Translations under genes and position numbers: made by a program
The notes under the pieces: model-generated
Databases searched by the model: none
What the model was told of the DNA's origin: nothing
The model's input: only the letters and a program-made list of their open reading frames with translations
In this document: in pieces, positions 32,952 to 50,282 of the stretch
Numbering within the stretch: the stretch's first letter is position 1
Layout: every line of letters starts with the position of its first letter
Source of the DNA: Bugula neritina
Lineage: Eukaryota > Bryozoa > Gymnolaemata > Cheilostomatida > Bugulidae
NCBI GenBank assembly: GCA_964035545.1
Contig: OZ037770.1
Span: forward strand, 5,065,662 to 5,129,661
DNA length: 64,000 nt
Reading direction: 5' to 3'

Positions 32952-35900
32952 ATGGCAACAGCTGGTGAGTGAAATTGAATACTATTTTATTCACTTATTT
33001 CTTGAAAAGTAGTAATATTTAAACTCTAAAGATATGTTGATATTATGCCACCACCATTTAATATAAATATATAAAACTATTTTATTATCACTACTTCCTA
33101 TAATACTGTTTTATGTCACCATGCAAATAAGCGTAATACTGTGTCACCTATTAGTGTATTACTTCGAAAATAATACAATAGATAAAATTATGCAAGCAGT
33201 TGGGTTGAAGTTGTTTTATCTCAACACAATAAACACTGAACTATAAGCTATACATAAAGTGATTGGTTAAAAAAAATATAAAGCTATCTAATAAAATATA
33301 TGTTAGTCATTGTTATGATTACTGAAATCCACCATATAATGAATCTATTCAATCAGTAGATGACAGGTGTCAGAATGATAGACACCACCTGCTAGCACTG
33401 TGTAATAATCACACTGTTACTGTATTATGTTACAGATAATATGAGAATATGGTTCAGACATTCTGGACAGCCTTCTAAGAGCTTGTCAGATGTAGACAAA
33501 GCTTATACCAAGCCATATACTACTGCTGAGGTGAAACGTGAAGTTGGGAGTTATCATATCACAGATCTGGAAGTGGAAGGGGAAATTCCAAGTAACATTG
33601 GAGAGATTGCTGGTAGAGCCCTGTGTCTATATGTTTTTAAACTGAGTGACGGAGCAAGTCTAGACAAGTGAGTGTCTATTAAAATAGCTGTGGAAATGAT
33701 AAATGAATTCAATTGTGTTATTTATTAAATGATAATTGATAATAGATGCTGAAGTTAAAGCATCTTTTTGCTCATAATATATTCATACAATATAATATAC
33801 ATCAACATAGTAATATGTGCAACATTGTATGTAATCCAATTAAGCTTATAGTTGTAGAAACTAGGAAATGTAAAACTGCCTCTACTGCTACTTCATAATA
33901 TTGAATAAGTCATGTTTTATGTATATATAGCTAAAAGCTGGAGTAATGTACAGTTTATAATATATTATACAGAAGACTATGTTATGTCATCAACTGCAAA
34001 TTTACAATCTTAAACATTAGTTAATATATTAATTTACAGAGCATTGTAGAGTGAGGCCTTATGTACTATAAACTAACAGCTAACCTTGTATAATGAAACT
34101 TCCTCTCCTCACCTACAACATAATATAACTGAAACTCTTTGGTGTTTTTTGCATCAATATATCTGTTTCCTGCATGTTTTATGTTGAATACACAAGTAGT
34201 CCGATATAATGGTATATATTATTTTGATATATGACACACTTTATATCATGGTAAAAAACCTAAATATGCATATTCTTTGAAGTTATCTAATAGCTTGTCC
34301 TAACGTATAAATAATACAGTTTAATGGCATGCCATTGTATATCCTCATATCACAGAACTTTTCATAATCAATAATAAAACAGCCATCGGCAGTTTACTGG
34401 CAATCATGATAATAATTGAATCCTTCTTAGCTTCTTGCATCAATCACTTTGATTATCCATTACTCGAATGAATTTGTTTTCTGCATTTTTTACCTGGCTG
34501 ACTGTGCTTAGCAATATAACATGTACAGCGTATATTAATATGACACAGGAGACTACATATATTACACACTTTATATTACAGTCTATGCCAGCTGACTCAG
34601 TTAGAGAAACTAAACTTAAGTGGGAATCCTCTCAAGACAGTACCAGAAGTTGTGTCATTATTAACATCACTTAAAGAGTTGTATATGTGGAGCTGTGATT
34701 TATCTACTCTACCTGAGAGGTTTGTGGAGCACAATCTTTTTTGTTTCTAACATTCAATGATTGACATGTTGATATAATGCTTGCCAAGTATTGCTAATTA
34801 GTATGTCACTATGTATTGTTGAAAAGCATAAAGTTAAGTTACATATTTCTTGAGGCTATATAATATTAGAGTTTCTGAAAACTTGAAAATAATTAATTTT
34901 CAGTTTTCTGGCATTACATTTCCTATTACTATGAAACCTTCTCCAACAAATACTATAGCACTCGCTTATAGTTTACTAGAATCTATTTCACATTAAATGC
35001 TTATTAGGTTTCGGTATTTCACTTTGAATTTGCTTTGTTGCAATAAATATGTTTCTTGGATATTTTACTTGATTGAATACACAAGTAGTATATACTATTA
35101 TCATGATACAGTGGTTTAAACACATAAAAAACTTTATATTACAGCCTGTGTAAGCTGACTCAGCTAGAGAAACTAAACATAGGATATAATCCTCTCAACA
35201 CAGTACCAGAAGTTGTGTCATCACTTACATCACTTAAAGAGTTGGATATGTGGAACTGTAAATTATCTACTCTACCTGAGAGGTTTGTGGAACACAGTCT
35301 TTCTTGTTTCAAACACTCAATAATTCACATTTTGATATAATGCTTACCGAGTATTGGTAATTAGTATGTCACTGTGTGTTGTTGAAAAGCATAGAGTTAA
35401 AAGTTACATATTTCTTGAGGCTATATGATATTAGAGTTTCTGAAAACTTGAAAATAAATAATATGTTTCAGTTATCTGGCATTACATTTCCTATTACTAT
35501 GAAATCTTCTTCAACAAACACTATAGCACTCGCTTGTAGCTTACTAGAATCTATTTCACATTAAATGCTTATTAGGTTTCGGTATTTCACTTTGAATTTG
35601 CTTTGTTGCTATAAATATGTTTTTTGGATATTTTACTTGATTGAATACACAAGTAGTATATACTATTATCATGATACAGTGGTTTAAACACATAACACAC
35701 TTTATGTTACAGCCTGTGTAAGCTGACTCAGTTAGAGAAACAATACATGGGATGGAATCCTCTCAACACAGTACCAGAAGTTGTGTCATCACTCACATCA
35801 ATTAAAGAGTTGGATATGTGGAGCTGTGAGTTATCTACTCTACCTGGGAGGTTTGTATTGCACAATATTATCTCTGTTTCAAACATTTAATATTTCACTT

Positions 35901-38900
35901 CTTTAATGCTTATCAAGTAGTGTTATGCTAATTTATTATATATTGCCAACGTATGTTAAAAAACCTAAATATGCATTTTCGAACTTGTCCAATAGTTTGT
36001 CCTAAGGTGGAAATAATACAGCCTTATGGTATGCTATTGTATATCCTTATATCACAAGAACCTTTTGTAATGAATAATAAAACAGCCATCTGCAGTTTAC
36101 TGGCAATCATGGTAATAATCGAATCTTTCTTAGCTTCTTGCGTCACGCATTTTGACTATCCATTACCGCAATGAATTTTTTTTTGCATTTTTTACCTGGC
36201 TGACTGTGCTTAGCAATATAACATGTATATTATCATGTGTATTATTATGACACAGTAGACTACATATATCATACCCTTTATAATTATTGCAGTCTATGCC
36301 AGCTGACTCAGTTAGAGAAACTAGACATAAGATGGAATCCTCTCAACACAATACCAGAAGTTGTGTCATCACTCACATCACTTAAAGAGTTGAATATGAA
36401 GCACTGTGAATTATCTACTCTACCTGAAAGGTTTGTGGAACACAGTCTTTCTTGTTTCAAACACTCAATAATTCACATGTTGATATAATGCTTACCAAAT
36501 ATTGCTATAATTAGTATGTCACTATGTATTGTTGAAAAGCATAAAGCTCTTAATCGCATATTCCTTGAGACTATATGATATTAGAATTTCTCAAAACTTA
36601 AAAATAAATATGTTTCAGTTTTCTGGCATTACATTTCCTATTGCTATAAAACCTTCTTCAACAAATACTATAGCACCCACTTGTAGTTCACTAGAATCTA
36701 GTTCATGTTAAATGCTTTTTAGCTTTTGGTATTCTACTTTGAATTTGCCTTGTTGCAATAAAGTTATTTCTTGGATATTTTACCTGATTGAATACACAAG
36801 TATGGTATAATATACAGTATATAATAATATCCTGATACAGTGGATTATATATATTATGCAGTCAATATTACAGTCTATGTCAGCTGACTCAGTTAGAGAA
36901 ACTATACATAGAAAAGAATCCTCTCAACACAGTACCAGAAGTTGTGTCATCACTCACATCACTTAAAGAGTTGGATATGAGGAACTGTGAATTATCTACT
37001 CTACCTGAGAGGTTTGTGGATCACAGTCTTTCTTGTTTCAAACACTCAATAATTCACATGTTGATAAAATGCTTACCAAGTATTGGGAATTAGTATGTCA
37101 CTATGTATTGTTGAAAAGCATAAAGTTATAAATTACATATTTCTTGAGGCTATATTGAATTAGAGTTTCTCATTACTTGAAAATAAATATGTTTCAGTTA
37201 TCTGTCATTACATTTCCTATCGCTATAAAACTTTTTTAACAAATATTATAGCATCCACTTGTAGTTTACTATAGTGTGTATTTCTCATTAAATGGTTATT
37301 AGAGCCTTCTGTACTTTACTATGAATATGCCTTAGCGTAATAAATTTGCTATTTGGATATTTTACTTGATTGAATATGCAGTGTTTGTTATGATACAATA
37401 AATTAAATATATCACATACTTCTTATTACAGTCTATGTCAGCTGACTCAGTTAGAGAAACTAGACATAGAAGGGAATCCTCTCAACACAGTACCAGAAGT
37501 TGTGTCATTACTCACATCACTTAAAGAGTTGAATATGGGGAGATGTAACTTATCTAATCTACCTGAGAGGTTTGTGTGCCACAACGAGTTTTATATATCA
37601 CTTTTAACATCCAATAATTGTTATTTTGAAGCAGATTTCAACACAGTAAATACTACATTAAGATGTTTATACTTTTTCTCTGCAAACCTACATATGAATC
37701 TCATCGTTTCTGGGGATATTGTCAATTAGCACACTATCTAGAAGTTTCCTCTGCTTCACAAGTTATTTTATAGTATTTCTATATCTTTTTGAATATTTCC
37801 CATGATAGGTTGACTGGGCTGTTTTTCAGAAATCGTTTTATTAACTCTTTTCATTATATTATAACTATAGCTACTTCTGTACACATAATATTATATTGTT
37901 ATGGTAACGCAGTTTCTTATCACTGTCTAATTGAATGCACAAGTGCTATATACAGTACATAATATTATCCTGATACAGTGGATTACATGTATTATGCACT
38001 TTATATTACAGTCTATGTCAGGTGACTCAGATAGAGAAACTAAACATAGGAGATAATCCTCTCTACACAGTACCAGAAGTTGTGTCATCACTCACATCAC
38101 TTAAAGAGTTGGATATGGAGAGCTGTGGATTACCTACTCTGCCTGAGAGGTTTGTGGAACACAGTCTTTTTTGTTTCAAAAACTGAATAATTCACATGTT
38201 TTTATAATGCTTACCAAGTGTTGTTAATTAATATGTCACTATGTATTGTTGAAAAGCATAAAGCTATAAATTGAAAAATTTTCTTGAGTCTATATGATAT
38301 TAGAGTTTCTAAACACTTGAAAATAAATATGTTTCAGTTATTAGGCATTACATTTCTCAATGCTATAAAGCCTTCTTCAACAAATACCATAGCATCCACT
38401 TGTAGTTTACTAGAATCTATTTCATGTTAAATGCTTATCAGCTTTCAGTATTTTACTTTGAATTTGCTTTATTGCAATAAGTTTGTTTCTTGGATATTTT
38501 ACCTGATTGAATACACAAGTATAGTATATACAGTATATAATAATATCCTGATACAGTAGATTACATATATTATGCACTTTATATTACAGTCTGTGTCAGC
38601 TGATTCAGTTAGAGAAACTAAACATAGCAAGGAATCTTCTCAAAACAGTACCAGAAGTTTTGTCATCACTCACATCACTTAAAGATTTGAATATGGGGAA
38701 GTGTAAATTATCTACTCTACCTGAGAGGTTTGTTTGTCACTACAAATTTTATATCATTTTCAACATTCAATAATTATTATTTTGTAGCAGAATTTCATCA
38801 CAGTAAATACTACATTAAGATGTTTATACTTTTTTTCTGCAAACCTCCATATGAATCTTACCGTTTCTGGGGATATTGTTAATTAGCACGCTATCTAGAA

Positions 38901-41900
38901 ATTTCCCGACTTCACAAATAAATTTTTAGTCTTCCAATATCTTTTCTGAAATGCTTCCCATAATAGGTTGACTGGGCTTTTCTTCAGAAATCGTTTTATC
39001 AACTCTTTTCATTATATTATAATGATAGCTACTTCTGTACACATAATTGGTATATATTGTAGTAATTTTGGTAATTACTGGTTTTGTGGGCTTCTAGCGA
39101 GCAATATATTTATATTATCTTCCAATAATATCACGGCTTGTAACAGGAATGAATGATTTATTTATACACAATAAAAGTAGTAGCAAAACGATAAATCCGG
39201 TATCACTGGTAAAAATATACATCTATCTTACACTAACTAGCCATCATACTCTGAGTATGGCTGCTATCTACATCCAGCGCCCTCTGCGCATCGCTGGGGC
39301 TCTCATGTGACAGATATATGATTGGCTGGGGAGCGCGTGGGATAACATACTACACTCCCCACTACACTGCCTCTCCCAGCAGGAAGCCCACCTTCCTGAT
39401 AATACCAAAATAAAAAATTAAAATAACAACAAAAAAACAATAAGATATCTGCATCACAAGATCAAAAAATGTATACTTAGGCCAACGGCCTATTAAAAAA
39501 AAAATCTTGTTAAAATATAAAAATTATGTACTATAAAACTAAGAGATTGTATATGTACCAAGAGCCTCTGGTCTGGCACCAAGAGATATGATGTGTAGAG
39601 AGACGGTAAGTGAGGCACAACCTGCGGCGCAGATCAGGAGGACAGCTGGATGGAGTTAGGGACGGGGAAATAGAAAGGGAAGGAGAACGTCATCCACGAC
39701 ACGTGTCGGGGCAATGTGGAGGGTAGACACTCAGTCTTCATCATCCCTCTTGAGCTGGGCCACAGAGTCCCGGAGAGCCTTGAGTTCAGAAGCGGCGGCT
39801 GATATCCTAGGCGCCAACCGCTTGATCTCCCTCTCTCTAGTTCATGCATCCGTTGCTCCATCTCTCTTAGATTTCTAGCAACAGAGGAGTGGCGGTCGGG
39901 GGATGAAGATTGCTAACGCCGGCGTCATCTCTGGGGGATTTCTATCCGTTGTACGACTACTACGGGTACGGTGTTGGAAAAGGGCACAGTGTGAGCAGGG
40001 GGTGACGGGCGAGGTATTGTGAGCTTCCTAAACCCAGGGGATTTGGGGCAGGGTCCTTGGGTAATGGTACGGGGAGCGGGGAATTTTTGGCTCAGCCGTT
40101 TGTAACGTGCAGGGTCTGAAATGAATGGCTTGGTGAGGCCTAGAAAAGTAGAGAAGGAAAGCTTGTTCACATTGTAGAGATGTCCAGTGTGACACTCCAT
40201 AGTCCTCTGGTAACGGAGGATGTAGTCCCTGTGGTAGCTGTACTCCCCACAGGGACAGAAGGTGGTGATGAAATGTTGAGGGATGTGTACTCGGAGGCGG
40301 CGAGGTGTGGTAAAATGCTGTTGACAAAGCCGGCAGGTGGTGCAGTCGTCGTCTCCTTTATTTTGTTGAATCATGTCCTCGGTATGTTGGGTAACCCAGC
40401 TAGACCGGGTTATGAGTATTTCTGGTAGTGTTGTGGAGGTAGGTTCCGTCTCCTAAGCCATCTCCAATGGTGGCATATCATTGTAGTTAGGAGAGCGAGT
40501 GGTACCTGAAAGAGCAGAATTATTGTTGGATCGAATTTGATCTTTACAGCATAATTCTGATGACAATCGACTGTTACTAGTCTGAGAGTCATGCATCTTT
40601 TTGTACGGCACTCGAGAGACTGTGTTTGGATGCCTAGACTGACTGAGAAACATAGTGACATGGCTGGAACTGTTTGCCCCGGGCGCATTAATTCCACCTA
40701 CTACTCCGCCCTCGCAAAAAATGATATTTTCGTGGTGTTTACAACTCCCACGTTTCGCTGCCAGTCTCTCCGTACGGCACTCAGCTTGGCCTTCATATCT
40801 GCCGCTTGTAACACAGTCACATACGAAGTCTTTCAAATATGCTGGGGGTTGCCTAGTACGTTGTCCACTTTCTAAGGGAAGTGGTGTGCTAGTTGGGGGA
40901 GATGGTGTAGTCACTGCTGGTGGGGGTGTACTCACTGGTGGACTTTTATGTTCCGCCGGTGGCGTTTTCGGCCTGCTATTGACTGTTGTATCATTTTCAA
41001 GATCTCCAGATGGAGCCCTCCCCTGGGGGGGTTATGCACTTCCGGAGCTGAAACAGGTTCCGGAAGTGGTGGCGTTAGACTTGGCGCTGGAGGTGGTGGG
41101 CGCACTTTTGGTAACGCAAGTGGCCTTTCCTGCCTCACCAAGTCTTCTGCCCGCGGCATGATCACTTCATACTCTGGTTCAGGTCGCCGCCGCCCGCGCG
41201 TTGCTGTCTGCCTCCTGGGCTCTAACAACGGGGGAGCTTTTCCTGCCGCACCTGGGCTAGTCCAATACGACTTCAAGCGAGCCTCATTTTAGATAGACAC
41301 CTGTCCTGAGCGCTCAAACTTGTAGGTGTGATTGGGCATCACTTCAACTACCGCGTAGGGTCTCACGAACTTAGGCTGTAGCTTAGCCGCCTGTTCTCGA
41401 TGCCTACGGCAGTTGACCATTCAGACCCAGTCTCCAACTTGGTAGAGGGGTGGTTCTTCGGAGTCTTCTTTTTGCACTTGCCACTGCTTTTTCCGCAGTA
41501 TTTCGTGTGCAACCTTCATTTGCTCTACCGATTTGCTGGCATACCCAAATCCCAAACCCCAAATCCTGGGGGGTAACCCAGTCTTCCACAGCTCGTACTC
41601 TTTCAGGATCAGTCGCCACGCCATGACGGCCGACGTGGTGCCCCAGGTACTTCACCTCCAGCTGCAAGAGAGCGCTCTTGGAAGGTTTGAGCTTCAGGCC
41701 GGCACCTCTGAGTCATTCGAACATCTCCTGCATATGACTGACGTGTGTCTGGAAATCCGGGAAAATCACAATGACAACATCGAGGTAGACTAGCAGTGTC
41801 TCCCAGTGGAGCCCACTGAGGACCTGTTCCATGAGCCTCTGAAACGTGGCGGGGGCGGAGGTCAACCCAAAGGGTAGTACTTTCCACTTCCACAGTCCGT

Positions 41901-44900
41901 TCCATGTGATGAACGCCGTCTTCTCCTGGGCGTCGGGAGTCAGAGGGACCTGCCAATAACCGCTCAGCAAGTTTAGTGTGCTAAAGTACTTGCTGCCGGC
42001 CAGGGCGTCCAGAGATTCATCAATCCGAGGTAGAGGGTAGGCGTCCTGTATGCTTACGCTATTTAGTTTGCGGTAATCCACACAGAACCACCAACTGCCG
42101 TTTTTCTTCCGGACCAGGACGACCGGCGAGCTCCACGCACTATGTGCTGGCTCTATGAGGCCGCGGTCCAAAAGATCCCGGACTTGTCGGCTGACCTCCT
42201 TTTCTTCATTAGTAAAAAATCACTTAGTAGATTATATAGTATGTTTGATTTAGGTAATTCAAGTTCTACTTTTATTTATTTTGAAATAAAAGATCTGCTT
42301 TTATATTGTAAACCAAAGAAGACAAAAAAAATTATTAAATATTGCAACTTTGTTTTTTTTTCATGCTCTTTTTTGGTTATCTATCTCCAATTCTCAGTGT
42401 AATAGAAACCAATTTTTATCCTATTCTTGTTCTTAAACAGCCTGTTAATATATTGTTTCATAATTACTTTACAATTCTAAATTTTGAATTAACTTGCCTT
42501 TAAAAATGTAACGTGTTCCTGCAAGATGATGACTTTCCAGAATTTTATTCTCTCGTAGTGAAATAATTCACAACTTCTATTTCCTGTCTAGAAACTATAA
42601 TACATTTATTAGAGCAATTAGTGAGAGGTTGTGGCAGAAGTATTTTATTCTACTTGAAATTACTTTAATGGCTTGTGTAGATGTTTCAGAGCTCTACTGT
42701 GTTCCTATTTGATGATAAATTGCATGTATTATGACACATATAAAACAATATTCCTTATAATTATAACATCCATATAGTAGAATATCAGTGTGAGTAGTTA
42801 CTCAGTGATCAGAAATGTCAGAAGTATTTTATTTTCACTTGACATAACTTTAATGCCTTATGCAGAATATGCCACAAAGCTGTAGCCTACCATGTTCATG
42901 TTTGCTGATAACTGTGTTATGGCACATACTAGGAATTTTCTACTCTGTAGTATAAAATATTACTCTCTCTAGTAGAACAGCAGTGTGAACAGTTACTCAG
43001 TTATCTGCCATATAGAAAAAGATGATAGTATTACATGTAGGTTGTTGTTTTTTATGACAGTACTTAGTACAGATGTAGCACTTTTCTTACCAAATATATA
43101 CTTACAATTATACTGTTATATTATATATCTTTATAAAATAATTAAAATGTTATGCATCGTATATATATAATATGGTACTTGTACATAATTGTAACTTAGA
43201 AATACTTGTTTTCTTTCCTTAATTAATGTACTAATTCAAAGTATTGTATATAAACTTGTTATAGTAACTGCCACTTGGTACTATATTATGTGTAATAATT
43301 GTTATACTAATATTGGGTATCTTTATGAAAACTATTATATCATTTACCTGTATAGCTAGGTCTAATAATAGAAATATTATATATTATTAGAATACAGAGA
43401 TTAAAGAAGTTACAGAAACTCACAATTTCAGAGAATAATTTCACCAGTCTACCTTCTTCAGTATGTGCATTGATTAATCTGCACACACTGGATATATCCA
43501 GCAACAGATCCATGACATCTTTGAACCCTGAGATACTACAGCTAACACATCTTGGATCCTTCGATACAGATGGATGTGATGCTCTTACATCTCCTCCACA
43601 AGAAGTCTGTGAGAGAGGACTGGAGTCTGTGCGACAATACTACACAGACTTGGCTAAAGGTGCAGGTAGAAATCTTCCATTTGCTACAATAGTGGTGTTG
43701 GGGAACACCATGGCAGGTAAAACCAGCCTAATCAAAACATTACAGAGCACTGACAGGAAGAGAGTTCTGACTGACAGAAGTCCTAATGCAGAGCATGATG
43801 AGACCACAAAGGTGTTTAATGTGGAAGAGGTGGAAGTGAATGGTACAACTCTTCGTCTCATAGATATGGGAGGCCAAGAGGTCTACCATATCACATACCA
43901 TTTGACACTAAGACAGAATTGTGTACCAGTAGTTGTAGTCAACATGGAGCAGTATGATCAGATTTCGAAAATGTCTACAGACAGAGAGGCTGTGAGAAAG
44001 TTGGCCTTTGACTTCATGTCTCACCTCTATCTCGCTCATCCATTTCTTGGCCCACCTAAGCTTGTCTTCACACACAAAGATAAGTTTCCGAGTGAAGTTT
44101 TTCAACAGCTTCGAAGAAATCTTCTTGAAGTGTCTGAGCAGTTTTGCAAAAATATTCTTGAAGAAGAGAAAGGTTTAGAAGGTGACTTTGCTCGAATTCA
44201 ACATTTCACTCAATCAAACGGAAAAGTGTTCTCCGACGACAACATATATGAAGTTGGAAAATTTGACGAGTACAAGATATTTGAATCGATTAAAAAATCT
44301 CTTCTTCAAAGTTGCCGACACTTTATCAAACCCCTTCCAAAAGTCTGGGAGGATGTCAACACAAAAGTGTTGTCCTTGCAGTCCGCACACAATACCTTTG
44401 ATGAAATCCTGGCAGAGATAAAGAAAGAACGGAATGATATTGATAGAAACCAATTGGATACCATCATCATGTACATGCATGATTGTGGAAAAGTTCTCTG
44501 GTATAAGAATGTTGATGCACTCAGGCCATACATATTTCACAAGATTACAGAAGTTACCAAACTGCTGTGTGTCTTGTATCACCATGATCCAAACATCTGG
44601 CAGAGCAGAGTAGATCAGTTCAAACCATATTTATCAAGAGGAGTGAGAATTGAGAAGCAGGACTTTGAAGAGTCTGTGAACTACTTCCAAGCAACTGGCC
44701 TAATGATGCAATCCCTTCTTGAATATCTGATAGCTCAGGAAACTTTATTTAGAAATCCGGGTGATGTTGAAATTGGGCTTTGTTTGCTCAGCACGTTCCG
44801 TTTGTTGTATGGCCCTAGGAATGATGAATCCTATGATTCCTACTTCATAATCCCTCAGTTTGCCAAAGAATCCTACAGCCTCTCCTACACTCAACAAAAG

Positions 44901-47900
44901 GAGTTACTGCTTCATACTGAGACTCAGTTTAATGGTCTGGCGTTACCGCAGCATGTCTACCATCAAATGACTGTTGGTTTGTTAGAGATGTTTTCTAAAG
45001 AGTTTGCTACAATGCAAGTGAAGAGGAATGGTGCTAACGTCTACCAAGATGAAATATACACACAACTGGTACACGATTACGCATTGAGAAGAGTTTTACT
45101 CTACGTTTCATCTGATGCGTCCAACATTTCCAGAATGTGGGAGAATCTCATTTCGGTCAACAACAACATCCTCAGACATGTTATGGAGACTTGGACTGCT
45201 AGTCGACCAGTCACTGCCTGCATTTGTGCTCACTGCTTGCTACTTGGGGTTTCCTGTCCTAAAAAACTCTTTCACCCCAAATGGTGTCTTCGATCCTTAA
45301 AAAACCTGCTGCCACCTAATGTCAAGAAGTGTGGTGGAGCTTCAAAGATGTTATGTAATGGAGAGGAGGTCCCTAGCGCTTTAATCCACCCATGTATGTT
45401 CACTCATAAAATTGAATTTCAACAGAAATATTTTCAATAATTGTTTCAACAGATAAATATTTACTACTTTGTGTTGCAAAAAACTTTTAGTAAAAATTTT
45501 GAGCAATTAGTTGAATATTTTGTCTTAATTATAAAATCGCAACTTAAAAGCATGAGCTCCTATTCACATGTCATTATCTCGTAAATTAAATTCTTTAAGG
45601 TTTAGTAATACAAATCTTGTTTGTTCTATTCAGGTGAGAAATTGTCAGAAACAGAATCAAATAAGTTGAAGAAGCTAGTTGCTGAGCTCAAACTGCGAGG
45701 AGATCAGAACAATTCAACTGGTAAATTTTTTTAGACTGAACTTGATGTGGGTCATTTTACTTAATTTAGTACAGGAGTATGACCTGTGTCATGAACACAC
45801 CTAAATAATCAAACCTACTCCTAATTTTGCTTGATTTCCCATGTTTTTTCCTAATTATTCAGCTACTTTTGACTGCAGACTGTCATGAAAAAACCATATT
45901 TCTCTGAAATCAAAAGTAGCTGAATAATTAGGAAAAAATATGGGAAATTAAGCAAAATTTAGAAGAACCTTGATTTTTTAGGTGTGTTCATTTAAGCTTT
46001 ACTACTTTTGGGCAAAACTCATGTTCATTAGCAGCTAAAATGTAAAAAAATAGCTAAAAACAAGTGTGTTCATCACTTTTGGGCAAAAACTTATGTTAAT
46101 TAGCAGTTAAATTGTAAAAAATAGCTAAAAACTGGAGATTTCCAGTGTGCACTAAATTAAGTAAAATGACCTATGTGTACAGCCACCACTTGATAAAACT
46201 CCTTGTTTTGCAAAGCTGGCCATACATGTAGATATCTAAGAGCTTTTTTATGCATGCGTTCATTGTAATCCATTGCTTTTTGCTGCTAGTGGTTGAGAAA
46301 AATTTTAATTGTATGGCTTTTAAATGATGAAAAAAATCAACTGTTCACATGACTGTCTAGAAATATTAGCTGATGATCTGAGTGATCTCTCTGAAGATGA
46401 TGACAATCTGTACCTTGATGGAGAGAATGGAGAAGGCCTGAAGCTGATACAACTTGAATTGAAGCCAACCACCAACCCAAAGATAAAGCAGCTGTTCTCA
46501 GATACTGACAAGGTGAATGTATCAGTTGATGAATATATTATGTCTATAGACTCTCTTTACTAGATAATCATGACTATAGTCGTTCAATTACTTTTAGAAA
46601 AAGTTCAGTCTGAACGCAATTTTTCCATTTACTTCAGTTAACTTTTAATTTTTAGCCATGTCTGTTTTTGGGCTGTGTCTGTTTGGTTAAGGTTTAATCT
46701 GTTGTCACACGGTTAGGAAATATTTGTAGTGTCGAGATTTCTGGCCCCTTTGATGTATTGATTTGTGCACCTGCATGCATGGTTGAATATTTTCTGCAAC
46801 ATATTCTGATTTTTTTGTGAAGAGTAGCAGTAGTATATAAACATTATTCCAAAAGATATTAAAGGTCAGATGTAAATAAAGACTAAAAGAGAGGTAGAGA
46901 GGTCCGTGGTGTCCTTAAGAAATAAACTGGATGTAGTGTTAAGATCGCCTATAAGTCTCTGTGGGATAATCTCAGTGGGACAAAATTGTTTTTCGCCTGG
47001 AACCTTAAACTTTTCTGTACCTTCACCATAGTTTGCTATTGCATTCTATGGTATCTTTAAAGTTAGTAAATACTTTGTTGAAGAGGTTTGGCTTTTGAAG
47101 TTTAGTTCACATATAATGGTTTAAATGTCAAAATTGATGGTATCTTGTCAGTATGGCCATGCATTGTCATTATTTACTTCCATAGCTTTACCAATTTATA
47201 TACTTGATTTAGAAAAATGTAGGATTATTTACAAGCTATTATCAACAAATCAGAATTAATATACTTGTAGCCTGCTATTGTTTTTTAAACCATACCTCAA
47301 GGATATTTTTTTATGCTTAACCGACTACCAAATGCAATGAACTATTTCGTTAGTAAAATTATCATTCGGTCTGATACATTGAAATTAATTTTATTCTAGT
47401 TTATGCTACCCAATTGGCTAATAAAATAAAATCTAAAATACAAAAAGCAATTGAGATATGAAATGTTTTTTTTCAAAAGTATGTTTGACTGGTTTTTTAC
47501 AAGACTTAAAAATTTAAGACCTGTTTGGAGTTTGAGAATTACTACTGTATGCAATCCTCTAACTATCTTTTTATCCAGGTGTTCAGTATGACCAGAAAGA
47601 GAGAAAAAGCTCTGATAATAAACAACAAGCATTTTGTTGAAAGACCAGACTTATGCAGGAAAGGTTCAGATGCTGATGTTGAAAACATGTCTGTCATGTT
47701 GAAATCTCTCAAGTTTGATGTTGAGACACACACAGACCTGACAGCAGAGGTATGTTGTTATGGTGGAAGTAATACGAGCACTATTTAACCATAACACCTT
47801 GCAAATTGATACAATGTTGCACTGTAACTGTTCAGTCTATTAATGCTTGAAAATTAGGACTGTATGGAAAACCAAAAGCATGTTTGCTGCTGGTCACAAT

Positions 47901-49531
47901 TTTGTTTTTTTGCAGGTTCAGAAATTATTATTTTATTCAGTCATCGTAACTTTGTATCGATTATTAAACATCGCTATTTTCAAACTTGTAGGAAATGCTG
48001 TCTGCTGTGAAGTCTGAGATAAGAAGAAAAAAAAGGAATGGCTTGGGCTGTCAAATACTGGTTATTATGACTCATGGTGGAGAAGATAACTGCATCTATG
48101 GAACTGACCTTGAGCAGGTCAACCTTACAGACTTCTATGATTTTCTCGCTCCTCTGAGTCTGAAGCCTAAACCTACAGTTGTCATCCTACAAGCTTGCAG
48201 TGGAGGTAATTACATTTTTGTATAGAAAACTTTCATTTTTAGTCAAGTAGTGAAAATAATACAGAGACCCTTGAAAAGTTTTTTCTGTACTGATCAAATT
48301 TCTTTTTTACTCATCACGGTGCAAGTTTGAATGCGTTTGTTTTTCTTGCAGCAAACATTGATGTTAATCGAGGCAGATCAGATCTTGCAGCAGCTCAAGA
48401 AGAAGAAACTGAAGCTGTCTCTTCTACACATTCTGAAGCTGATTATGATGATATTGTATATCCTGAAACACCCAGTGTGATAAGACCCATCAGACCTGTC
48501 TCACCACCAGAATATAGAGTAGAAGAACATATGACAAGACTGGATATTGATAATCTTCTTGTTCTGAAGAGTAACGTCTGCTGTAAGTATAATAAGAGAC
48601 AGTGATAGGCTGATATTTCTAAACTGTTGTACTTTGTCACCTATCTAAAAATTGTTCTTTGCCGTTTTCTTGCGTTACTTCCACATTTTTAATCTTGTTG
48701 ATTTGATAAGCTTCTAAACTGAGGTGACTAAAATGTTTTCTAGAACTTTGAGATTTAAATTGTGTTACAGTTTAGCTTAAAACATCTTATACTTTGTCTG
48801 ACTAGACCATGATTTTGGCTGCATTTAATATTATTATAGCATCAAAGAGACATCCTGAGTATGGATCTCCCATGATTAGAGTCCTAGTATCTTCAATCTA
48901 CAAACATGCCTGTCACCGTGATCTCCACACCATCTTTCAGCAGGTAAGTTGAAAGCTCAAAAGTGTTTTTGCTATTTTAACTTTTATTCAAGAAATAATT
49001 TCTCATCATGGCATCTCTTCCATCTCCATGTTCAAACCATTATGTCATTTGAAAGAAACAATTTAAACTGTTCTGAGTACAAGAGAAAGTCATTCAATGT
49101 TTTACTTGTTTAAATTGTAGAGTTTAGTTTCTGTTGTTTCAATTTCTTTAGAGTAATGGCTCAGTACTATATTGATAGTTTCTCTCCTTTTATAATAATA
49201 TGTTCTTGTAGTCTGCTATAACAACTAGTTTAATTTATTAAATGACATGACTGTAGTGGACAACTCCTAAAGTTTTACTACTCAGGATTGTTAAAGTATA
49301 TTCTAACAGCTGGGAGTTGTACCTTATTTCTTCTAGTAGTGAATTGATAAACAATCTTACTAGTTCTTACTTACTCTACAGGTACAGACTAAATTAGTGA
49401 AGAAACTCTATGCAGATGAAGATTCAGAAAGAAGCAGAAATTTGGTTGTAATCTGGAAGACTCTTCCTCCCCGTAAAAGACTTTACCTGTTTCCTGGCTT
49501 TGATGGGTTGAGTGAAGAGGCCAAATCCTAA
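32952..49531 (+). CDS. LRR-Roc-COR-caspase fusion protein (1486 aa, 17 exons)
   Basis: Exons: 32952-32964, 33436-33667, eight LRR exons (34582-34719, 35145-35282, 35713-35850, 36293-36430, 36874-37011, 37432-37569, 38012-38149, 38590-38727), 43391-45393, 45634-45720, 46361-46512, 47579-47749, 47992-48205, 48352-48582, 48840-48943, 49382-49531. Every intron is GT-AG, each join keeps phase, and the sum is 4461 bases, exactly 1487 codons with TAA. ATG 32952 has a good context (AACCATGG). Order: N-terminal domain (1-81), 16 LRRs (82-449), last LRRs, Roc and COR (450-1117), acidic linker (1118-1197), caspase p20/p10 (1198-1486). No membrane segment or signal peptide, so cytoplasmic. Roc-COR proteins are dimerising GTPases; caspases are Asp-directed cysteine proteases. 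Inferred role: ligand-gated cell death or immune signalling. The least certain edge is the 45393 donor; 45350 is a possible alternative. Confidence 0.9.
33436..33667 (+). CDS. N-terminal domain exon of the LRR-Roc-COR-caspase gene
   Basis: Exon 1 gives only MATA plus one base. Exon 2 gives about 77 residues starting DNMRIWFRHSGQPSKS and containing TTAEVKREVGSYHITDLEVE and LCLYVFKLSDG. The acceptor is TTACAG and the donor is GACAA|GTGAGT. The alternating beta-like pattern with one Lys/Glu-rich helix suggests a small folded domain, perhaps ubiquitin-like in size. I do not recognise the family. It sits where PIDD/NLR-type proteins often carry an adaptor module. Confidence 0.75.
34200..39138 (+). 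repeat. Tandem array of LRR exons with their introns
   Basis: Eight exon starts are spaced 563, 568, 580, 581, 558, 580 and 578 bp apart, and introns are conserved as well as exons. Introns fall into three types by sequence: A (after exons 1, 2, 4, 5, 7), B (before exon 1 and after 3) and C (after exons 6 and 8). The order B-1-A-2-A-3-B-4-A-5-A-6-C-7-A-8-C implies a three-exon block copied once (period 1711 bp) and a two-exon block copied once (1158 bp). Confidence 0.9.
34582..38727 (+). CDS. Eight LRR exons, two 23-residue repeats each
   Basis: Each exon is exactly 138 bp (46 codons), starts in phase 2 after a ...TTACAG/TGCAG acceptor and ends at ...CCTGAGAG|GTTTGTG. A unit reads LCQLTQLEKLDI, a variable pair, NPLNTVPEVVSSLTSLKEL, then variable residues and LSTLPE. 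Differences cluster at the concave-face positions: after EKL (NLSG, NIGY, YMGW, DIRW, YIEK, DIEG, NIGD, NIAR) and after KEL (YMWSC, DMWNC, NMKHC, DMRNC, NMGRC, DMESC). Equal phase lets any exon be skipped or duplicated without frame loss. LRRs usually bind ligands. No stop or frameshift in any exon. Confidence 0.92.
39139..39354 (-). repeat. GypC 3' LTR
   Basis: About 216 bp on the minus strand, from TGTAGTATG to CCTGTTACA. It is preceded by a purine-rich run (GTAGTGGGGAG), a likely polypurine tract. A GTATAAATAAATC stretch may hold the poly(A) signal. The partner LTR is absent. Confidence 0.7.
39730..40440 (-). pseudogene. GypC ORF3: zinc-finger accessory protein, broken
   Basis: The longest open piece is 40374-39925. 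It contains CRLCQQHF then LRVHIPQHF (complete C-X2-C-X12-H-X3-H finger), FCPCGEYSYHRDYILRYQR (second set) and a helical stretch. Codons upstream to 40440 are also open and similar to GypA (SWV..TE). After a stop, a Glu/Leu-rich coiled-coil-like stretch (MEQRMHELER, then a frame change to LAPRISAAASELKAL) parallels the GypA C-terminus. In the same frame as the pol tail, separated by a TAG at 40455-40453. Confidence 0.75.
40453..41410 (-). pseudogene. GypC integrase C-terminal end and pol tail
   Basis: Translations in shifting frames show LQPKFVRPYAVVEVMPN and YKFERSGQV (integrase C-terminal domain, matching GypB), KSYWTSPGAAGKAPPLLEP, a Pro-rich part, RQPPAYLKDFVC (Ty3 pol end motif) and KRGSCKHHENIIFCEGG, the block also found in GypA at 8805-8860. 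Several stops interrupt. Confidence 0.7.
41411..42210 (-). pseudogene. GypC reverse transcriptase fused by deletion to integrase end
   Basis: RT motifs: LLDRGLIEPAHSAWSSPVVL, VDYRKLNSVSIQDAYPLPRI, SLDALAGSKYFSTLNLLSGY (motif A Asp replaced by Asn), FGLTSAPATFQRLMEQVLSG, YLDVVIVI (second catalytic Asp replaced by Val), VKYLGHHVGRHG and ATDPERVRAVEDWVTPQD. Right after this the sequence jumps to KVAHEILRKKQWQVQKED, the start of the integrase C-terminal region, so RNase H and the integrase core were lost in one deletion. Dead. Confidence 0.88.
42214..43390. other. Intron before the Roc exon, with a ~190-bp tandem repeat
   Basis: Two imperfect units (about 42630-42815 and 42822-43010) share GCAGAAGTATTTTATT, ACTTTAATG and CAGTGTGA.TAGTTACTCAGT. 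No coding sequence and no further LRR exon is seen between GypC and 43390. Confidence 0.6.
43391..45393 (+). CDS. Roc GTPase and COR exon
   Basis: Starts after ATATTATTAG with the codon completing Arg, then IQRLKKLQKLTISENNFTSL (more LRR) and the pre-Roc motif SPPQEVCERGLESVRQYY. Roc: P-loop GNTMAGKTS (Gly554, Lys560), switch/G3 DMGGQ (Asp608) and G4 THKD (about 677-680). COR follows (about 770-1040) with IIMYMHDCGKVLWYKN, IFHKITEVTKLLCVLYHHDP and a long helical part. The end is Cys-rich (CICAHCLLLGVSC, KKCGGA). All GTP-binding motifs are present. The frame stays open to 45440, but the donor T|GTATGT at 45394 gives the phase the next exon needs. Confidence 0.9.
45634..46512 (+). CDS. Linker exons between COR and caspase
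   Basis: Exon 45634-45720 encodes EKLSETESNKLKKLVAELKL (amphipathic helix). Exon 46361-46512 encodes a strongly acidic stretch, DDLSDLSEDDDNLYLDG, ending LFSDTDK just before the caspase. Several Asp residues (DLSD, LYLD, SDTD) are candidate maturation sites, an inference only. Phases 1-1 and 1-0 agree with neighbours. A MITE occupies much of the intron between them. Confidence 0.82.
45750..46171. mobile_element. MITE, TIR GGTCATTTTACTTAATTTAG, intronic
   Basis: Ends are inverted copies (GGTCATTTTACTTAATTTAG, and CTAAATTAAGTAAAATGACC at 46152-46171). The centre has a long palindrome (AATTATTCAGCTACTTTTGA and its complement, about 45855-45930), and a ~100-bp unit (GGGCAAAA.CT.ATGTT.ATTAGCAG) is repeated. 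A relative with similar ends lies at 59917-60311. Confidence 0.82.
47579..49531 (+). CDS. Caspase domain exons (p20 and p10)
   Basis: Five exons. p20 begins VFSMTRKREKALIINNKHF. RKGSDADVENMSVMLKSLKF carries the Arg of the S1 pocket. MTHGGED has the catalytic His (about residue 1282) and ILQACSGG the catalytic Cys (about 1323). The spacing of 41 residues matches ordinary caspases (~42). QACRG is QACSG here, with Arg replaced by Ser. A long acidic, Pro-rich intersubunit linker (about 1327-1385, including ADYDDIVYPE) precedes LDIDNLLVLKS and p10: KRHPEYGSPMIRVLVSSIYK, DLHTIFQQVQTKLVKKL, LPPRKRLYLFPGF. Nothing essential seems missing. Fold is caspase C14A rather than metacaspase, by the QAC and GSP motifs. 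Confidence 0.9.
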
Positions 49532-50282
49532 CTCAATACATGACTCTATTTGTAATTTGCACAACACTCAGTTTAAGTTTGACTAAAATTCCGTGACCAT
49601 TAAACCTAAGCAGATAGTGAGTTTGTGTGAATGGGTAATGATTACTTGACAGTCAAATTATCTATCAAAGATTTTTAACTTTTGTATCTTATTCTGAGTA
49701 TAAAGCTATATACTGATAACATTTACTTTGGCAAATTAGCTTGTGATGTCTTTTTTTAATAAATAATCATATTATATGATATAAGCTGTACTGCCATATT
49801 ACAGGAATGATAAAAACAGCTCATTTGTGATTTTGTATGTTCTGCCTATATAGGTTACTATGTTATAGCATAATTAGTATAATATGGTTGCAGTTGATTT
49901 TATGTCCTGTAAAACATTAACCAATCCTGCTTATATGGTTTTTACTCAGCCAAATTTGTTATCATTTATATTTTGATGTGACACTAAGCACTGACTATGT
50001 TGTTTCATCCACATGTTCTAACTGCTATGCTAACATTATTATCATAATTGCAGTAGCTTGCTAGTATATATCGAAGTTTGCTTTTTATATTTTATCAATA
50101 AATTTATTCAAATATTTTATGTGAAAATTGTTTGCTGATATGATTTCAAGGTCTGAATATTTCACTTCAATAATCTGTGACTAAAGAAACACGTCCATTA
50201 TCTACAAATAATAGTCATGAAATCCGTCATTTTCTTATCTGCATCTGCAAACCAATCAATTATCAAATAACCTAATGAAATT
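49532..50282 (+). other. 3'UTR and downstream flank of the LRR-Roc-COR-caspase gene
   Basis: AT-rich, no ORF. Canonical AATAAA signals lie at 49758-49763 and 50097-50102, 230 and 570 bases after the stop. The nearer one is the likelier cleavage signal. Confidence 0.6.

Follow-up and report, generated by a model that had tools for sequence, protein, structure and literature searches.

The 64,000-nucleotide (nt) stretch of DNA analysed here, called the window, spans G000:C6:5065662-5129661 in the Bugula neritina genome, which consists of 216 Mb on 295 contigs. It contains a gene on the + strand whose predicted product joins leucine-rich repeats (LRRs), a Roc-COR GTPase and a caspase in one chain. 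With the exons rejoined from the sequence, an ATG at 32952 opens 1486 stop-free codons that end at a TAA stop (49529-49531), and all 17 introns are GT-AG and phase-compatible. The 18 exons comprise two N-terminal, eight LRR, one 2003-nt, two linker and five caspase exons. A first-pass annotation of this DNA had reported the same coordinates, strand and reading frame, all of which are correct on independent rejoining, and its 1487 codons including the stop agree with our 1486 codons plus TAA; its count of 17 exons is revised to 18. Its observation that LRR, Roc-COR and caspase lie in one frame is confirmed. ARAGORN, and Rfam at its gathering threshold, returned no matches in the 64-kb window.

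The predicted start ATG lies in a 13-nt exon 1 (32952..32964), which was placed by exon joining and is the least secure part of the model. Exon 2 (33436..33667) precedes the LRRs and shows 70% identity in the paralogous locus L023 and 73% in the partial locus L012. It is followed by eight successive LRR exons (34582..34719, 35145..35282, 35713..35850, 36293..36430, 36874..37011, 37432..37569, 38012..38149 and 38590..38727), each exactly 138 nt long, entered in phase 2 and encoding two LRRs; because length and phase are the same throughout, these cassettes can be duplicated, lost or skipped in frame. The 2003-nt exon (43391..45393) encodes the last LRRs, the Roc GTPase and COR, assigned from Pfam Roc and the predicted fold, and ends at a CCAT/GTATGT donor (the slash marks the splice site). 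Two linker exons come next, exon 12 (45634..45720) and exon 13 (46361..46512), the latter with an acidic DLSDLS motif at DNA positions 46375-46391. The first part of the caspase p20 subunit is encoded by exon 14 (47579..47749) and the second part, with the catalytic His (THGG) and Cys (QACSG), by the exon at 47992..48205, both from Pfam C14 matches. They are followed by exons for the p20/p10 intersubunit linker (48352..48582), the first part of p10 (48840..48943) and the last part of p10 with the stop (49382..49531).

The joined protein matches Pfam LRR_14 (E 2.5e-47), Roc (E 4.5e-07; 30.6 bits against a cut-off of 27) and Peptidase_C14 (E 5.2e-29), the last over residues 1205-1444 and profile positions 1-213 of 233, so that p20 and p10 are both present. 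By sequence COR-A is weak, scoring 18.9 bits (E 0.0014) where the cut-off is 35.3, and is not reported at E <= 0.001. The profile search that the first-pass annotation had proposed as a check has thus recovered LRR, Roc and Peptidase_C14, and COR is carried by the fold model. The structure model of the Roc-COR exon matches complete Roc-COR structures, including those of LRRK2 and LRRK1, and COR is placed directly after Roc, as expected of a ROCO protein. The window copy has the nucleotide-binding motifs GNTMAGKT (P-loop) and DMGGQE (DxGG). In an alignment of the window with 23 of 28 Roc-COR loci (L004, L007 and L028, which are partial, and L009 and L026, which have a stop within the stretch, were omitted), the P-loop and the D, GG and E positions are invariant or nearly so in the 24 copies, L038 being degenerate; Roc is found at E <= 0.001 in 22 of these 24 and COR-A in six. 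Protein kinase, ankyrin, death, CARD, DED and NACHT domains were all absent from the joined protein at E <= 0.001 in Pfam. By the features tested, the predicted protein is a ROCO member with an animal-type caspase and not an NLR, LRRK, DAPK or CARD/DED caspase. A match to EAD8, a prokaryotic effector-associated domain, at residues 319-366 (29.2 bits against a cut-off of 27) overlaps the LRRs and is probably a by-product of these repeats.

The best PDB sequence match of the caspase is an ancestral effector caspase-3/6/7, and the Arg preceding GSDAD corresponds in the alignment to an Arg in solved caspases. The catalytic His and Cys, both present in the window copy, are both kept in 28 of 33 loci. 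Glu replaces the Gln of QACxG in 22 of the 33 (EACSG, EVCSG, ETCSG), and the window keeps QACSG. The DxxD within the DLSDLS linker motif could be a caspase cleavage site.

The exon junctions between the two halves were compared in 20 loci fetched around caspase matches (15 on C6, three on C1, one each on C4 and C7), which with the window make 21 copies. In all 20 fetched loci COR and the caspase match share a strand, with COR upstream (in L026 the caspase comes from separate matches); the Roc part of L028 is beyond the edge of its fragment. The conserved protein ends in '...PC' on a CCAT/GTATGT or CCAT/GTAAGT donor in 19 of the 21 copies, L026 and L027 being without either form. Past the donor, the read-through differs among copies and reaches a stop after 9 to 81 nt. 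Exon 12 was found in 16 of the 21 copies and opens at AG/GTGA in every one; exon 13 is present in 20 and exon 14 in all 21. The first p10 exon is clear in 14 copies and weak in one, and the fragments of several copies stop short of its position. The median pairwise ratio of nonsynonymous to synonymous substitution rates (dN/dS) is 0.32 for exon 13 (26 loci), compared with 0.21 (29 loci) and 0.25 (33 loci) for the p20 exons; by this measure linker exon 13 is under purifying selection, and DLSDLS is found in 21 of 26 loci. The exon 13 match lies 74-101 nt from the caspase match in six copies and farther away, up to 1657 nt, in 19 others. Both matches run one codon past the splice sites, so the intron of the six copies would be about 80-107 nt.

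The case that would have overturned the single-chain fusion, according to the first-pass annotation, was that of two adjacent genes, of which the first, LRR-Roc-COR, would end at the 45440 stop and the second would be a separate caspase gene. The latter would start from the exon 14 ATG (VFSMTR). An in-frame stop does exist downstream of COR, and all 21 copies have the exon 14 Met. However, this Met and its flanking residues align with the domain start of solved caspases, which also have a Met there; the ATG lies inside the caspase alignment and was ruled out as a start. Furthermore, the donor is retained while the sequence after '...PC' diverges, with differing stops, and the linker exons keep both their order and a conserved coding sequence. 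We reject the two-gene arrangement because the donor is conserved, the linker dN/dS points to purifying selection and the gap from linker to caspase is short; it misfits the DNA of the 21 copies and is regarded as extremely improbable. The same evidence supports the predicted single-chain fusion. It is possible, though on the unlikely side, that one gene yields several products: the full chain together with a short LRR-Roc-COR form made by retention of intron 11, forms with skipped LRR cassettes, or a caspase-only form. Retention of intron 11 would append a few residues and then a stop, the LRR exons are frame-neutral, and brown algal ROCO genes are reported to splice such exons alternatively (PMC11378527); against this, the tail that a retained intron 11 would encode is not conserved among the 21 copies. 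Retroelement-like frames with raised G+C (reverse transcriptase and integrase words, recognised by eye) occur at 3.3-9.8, 26.8-32.3 and 39.9-42.2 kb, those of the last stretch being on the - strand of the intron that separates the LRR exons from the Roc exon. Such a stretch inside the gene would fit a decaying pseudogene, a quite improbable status for the window copy: the frame is fully open, all splice sites are intact, the active-site residues are kept, and its 3' part has near copies, with 95-99% identity, at C6:4738668 and C6:4807920.

Copies of this gene are abundant in the genome. The Roc-COR exon occurs in at least 64 loci at >=59% identity, derived from 65 matches (one copy is split); the number is a lower bound, 64 of 159 candidates having been scored. 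When checked against the 150 of 176 caspase matches that were listed, 49 of the 64 loci have one on their own strand no more than 6 kb downstream; none lies downstream on the opposite strand or upstream on the same strand. The search with caspase exons (79 matches) adds eight loci within 6 kb, giving 57 of 64 with the same order and strand. This linkage exceeds chance: the naive uniform expectation of an adjacent caspase, which ignores clustering, is about 0.0014 per locus. Viewed in reverse, 50 of the 59 caspase exons found at >=59% identity are preceded by Roc or Roc-COR within 10 kb, and at least one of the nine remaining, that at L027, does have a divergent Roc-COR. An artefact of a single locus is ruled out by these numbers; the family to which the predicted window gene belongs has at least 57 members. 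Grouped by position, the 150 listed caspase matches form 120 loci; 25 of these lie in the 2.5-6.4 Mb region of C6, and the end of C1 has another 29. COR was seen in three of eight short loci with 1.5-kb flanks (L004, L007 and L008 of L001-L008), and Roc-COR upstream of the caspase in six of 12 loci of 5.8 kb that were taken from other regions as a second set (L031, L032, L033, L038, L039, L040).

Several side observations concern the family. Two near copies of window positions 42300-49700, the 3' part of the gene, lie on the same contig, one at C6:4738668-4745967 (95% DNA identity, 89% at the end) and one at C6:4807920-4815421 (99-97%); the first caspase exon of both has only 84% protein identity, which hints at local sequence exchange. 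At C1:33884494-33886503 a Roc-COR match sits inside an open frame of 2363 amino acids, unlike the other copies. Four second-set loci on other contigs (L029, L030, L035, L036) have ankyrin-repeat frames of 508-982 amino acids upstream of a caspase-like match on the same strand; in L029 (judged by eye) and L036 (in tblastn) their linker is similar to that of the ROCO-caspase genes. An ankyrin-caspase family parallel to the ROCO one probably exists in this genome. In L034 and L037, neither Roc-COR nor ankyrin repeats were seen within the 5.8-kb fragment. On small contigs (C58, C90, C99, C144, C186 and others), Roc-family matches contain in-frame TAA and TAG and no TGA; contigs with this ciliate-type code pattern are perhaps contaminating or symbiont DNA.

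The LRR exons are diverse. In the window and 12 other loci, 41 LRR exons of 138 nt were collected, all of them different; outside the window exactly this length was sought, so the uniform length there is partly by design. Amino-acid change is in excess on codons of the LRR concave face. For 38 exons (L026 and L038 left out), the ratio of nonsynonymous to synonymous differences per site (pN/pS) is 1.55 at the exposed xxLxLxx codons (bootstrap 1.20-2.16) and 0.64 at the other codons, where the exposed set is that of the LRR consensus and yet was chosen after the per-codon table had been inspected. For the eight exons of the window the two values are 4.87 and 0.93, and random ten-codon sets match the exposed pN-pS in 26 of 10000 draws. 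On pN only, random sets match in 1 of 10000 (38 exons) and 28 of 10000 (window). Frame-neutral LRR cassettes would permit a repertoire of specificities.

We consider it likely, with good confidence, that the window gene belongs to a large lineage-expanded family encoding single-chain receptor-proteases, each composed of an LRR array, a Roc-COR GTPase, an acidic linker and an animal-type caspase. Initiator caspases are activated by proximity, and sensing, switching and proteolysis could be coupled through it here. The LRR array would bind a ligand, and ligand binding together with GTP turnover would alter the monomer-dimer state of Roc-COR, as in a bacterial Roco, which is described as a dimer without GTP and a monomer with GTP (PMC5714945). 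The shift in Roc-COR would draw two C-terminal caspase domains together; these may process themselves in the intersubunit linker, and perhaps also at the conserved DLSD of the linker that follows COR, and the freed protease would act in cell death or inflammation with no CARD or DED adaptor. The first-pass annotation took an immune or cell-death role from the architecture only, and that role is still inferred here, as are ligand sensing, switching and proteolysis. We give an even chance to the broader proposal that, in this animal, the family supplies a germline repertoire of dozens of 'single-chain inflammasomes' that need no adaptor, with a cassette-diversified ligand face, a Roc-COR-gated caspase, dead copies as decoys or regulators and the parallel ankyrin-caspase family beside it. 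A family role in self/non-self recognition between colonies or in developmental cell death, rather than in antimicrobial defence, is unlikely. Clustered genes for diversified receptors would equally suit allorecognition; prokaryotic proteins of the same layout are interpreted as counter-invader systems (PMC8195603), and the present data fit both roles alike.

A number of points weigh against the receptor-protease reading. The gene model and the family are read from DNA sequence, and exon 1 was not found by the one pattern used in L023, the only other copy with enough upstream sequence. Six of the 64 Roc-COR loci have none of the 150 listed caspase matches within 6 kb and none of the 59 caspase exons within 12 kb, and in one more the nearest caspase is 7.05 kb away. 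Six of the 12 loci of the second set showed no Roc-COR, and L009 has a stop within the Roc-COR frame. Cys is changed to Ser in four of 33 loci (L011, L018, L022, L023) and His to Leu in L014; these five are possible pseudo-caspases, and since some copies are without the catalytic Cys or His, protease activity is not required of every member. In the 38-exon set, 299 of 10000 random codon sets do as well as the exposed codons on pN-pS, a modest result. Finally, the bacterial Roco is dimeric only without GTP, and the caspase might be activated in either nucleotide state.

In well-studied animal systems, a caspase in death or immunity usually reaches a separate sensor via adaptors. If the present reading is true, sensor, switch and protease are in one chain, and therefore one purified protein would be enough to measure ligand, nucleotide state and protease output. 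The effect of the Roc-COR dimer cycle on a fused C-terminal domain, including that of LRRK2, would also become testable. Like animal caspases (C14A), the predicted enzyme has p20 and p10 and the His and Cys. The usual prodomains of animal caspases are CARD, DED or short ones; here the LRR-Roc-COR region replaces them.

The LRR-Roc-COR-caspase layout is known from prokaryotes and was not met for animals in the literature searched: none was named in the titles and abstract openings covered, a body of text that leaves most subscription papers outside, and a paper on NLRs of Dysidea avara has 'CASc' and 'COR' as figure-legend labels, with no details in the sections available (PMC12909245). LRRK1/2, DAPK1, MFHAS1 and the Trichoplax ROCOs share LRRs and Roc-COR with our gene, whose fold matches LRRK2 and LRRK1; unlike them, it has a caspase, and kinase, ankyrin, death and CARD domains are absent at the threshold given above. 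Animal Roc-COR proteins had been said in the first-pass annotation to end in a kinase, a death domain or nothing, and their variety is wider, as Trichoplax ROCOs are described with CARD, death, TIR and other domains (PMC4104024). Brown algal ROCO genes likewise have phase-2 LRR exon cassettes with selected concave-face sites, of 72 nt and one LRR each as against 138 nt and two LRRs here, and are plain LRR-ROC-COR without a C-terminal effector (PMC11378527). Alongside brown algae, our family would be a second instance of LRR exon cassettes in ROCO genes.

When prokaryotic genomes were scanned with only two short Roc-COR alignment patterns, 45 pattern matches came up and no relative was confirmed, an outcome compatible with old or recent transfer. 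In prokaryotes, proteins have been described that carry variable LRRs, an AP-GTPase, COR and, at the C-terminus, one of at least 24 domain kinds, caspase included, and that also occur in several copies per genome (PMC8195603). The Bugula family has the same domain order, but its genes are intron-rich, number dozens of paralogs and have LRR exon cassettes, the caspase is animal-like, and in contrast to the varied effectors of the prokaryotic systems, the same effector follows in nearly all copies for which a neighbour was found. It is a probable animal counterpart to the prokaryotic LRR-Roc-COR-caspase proteins.
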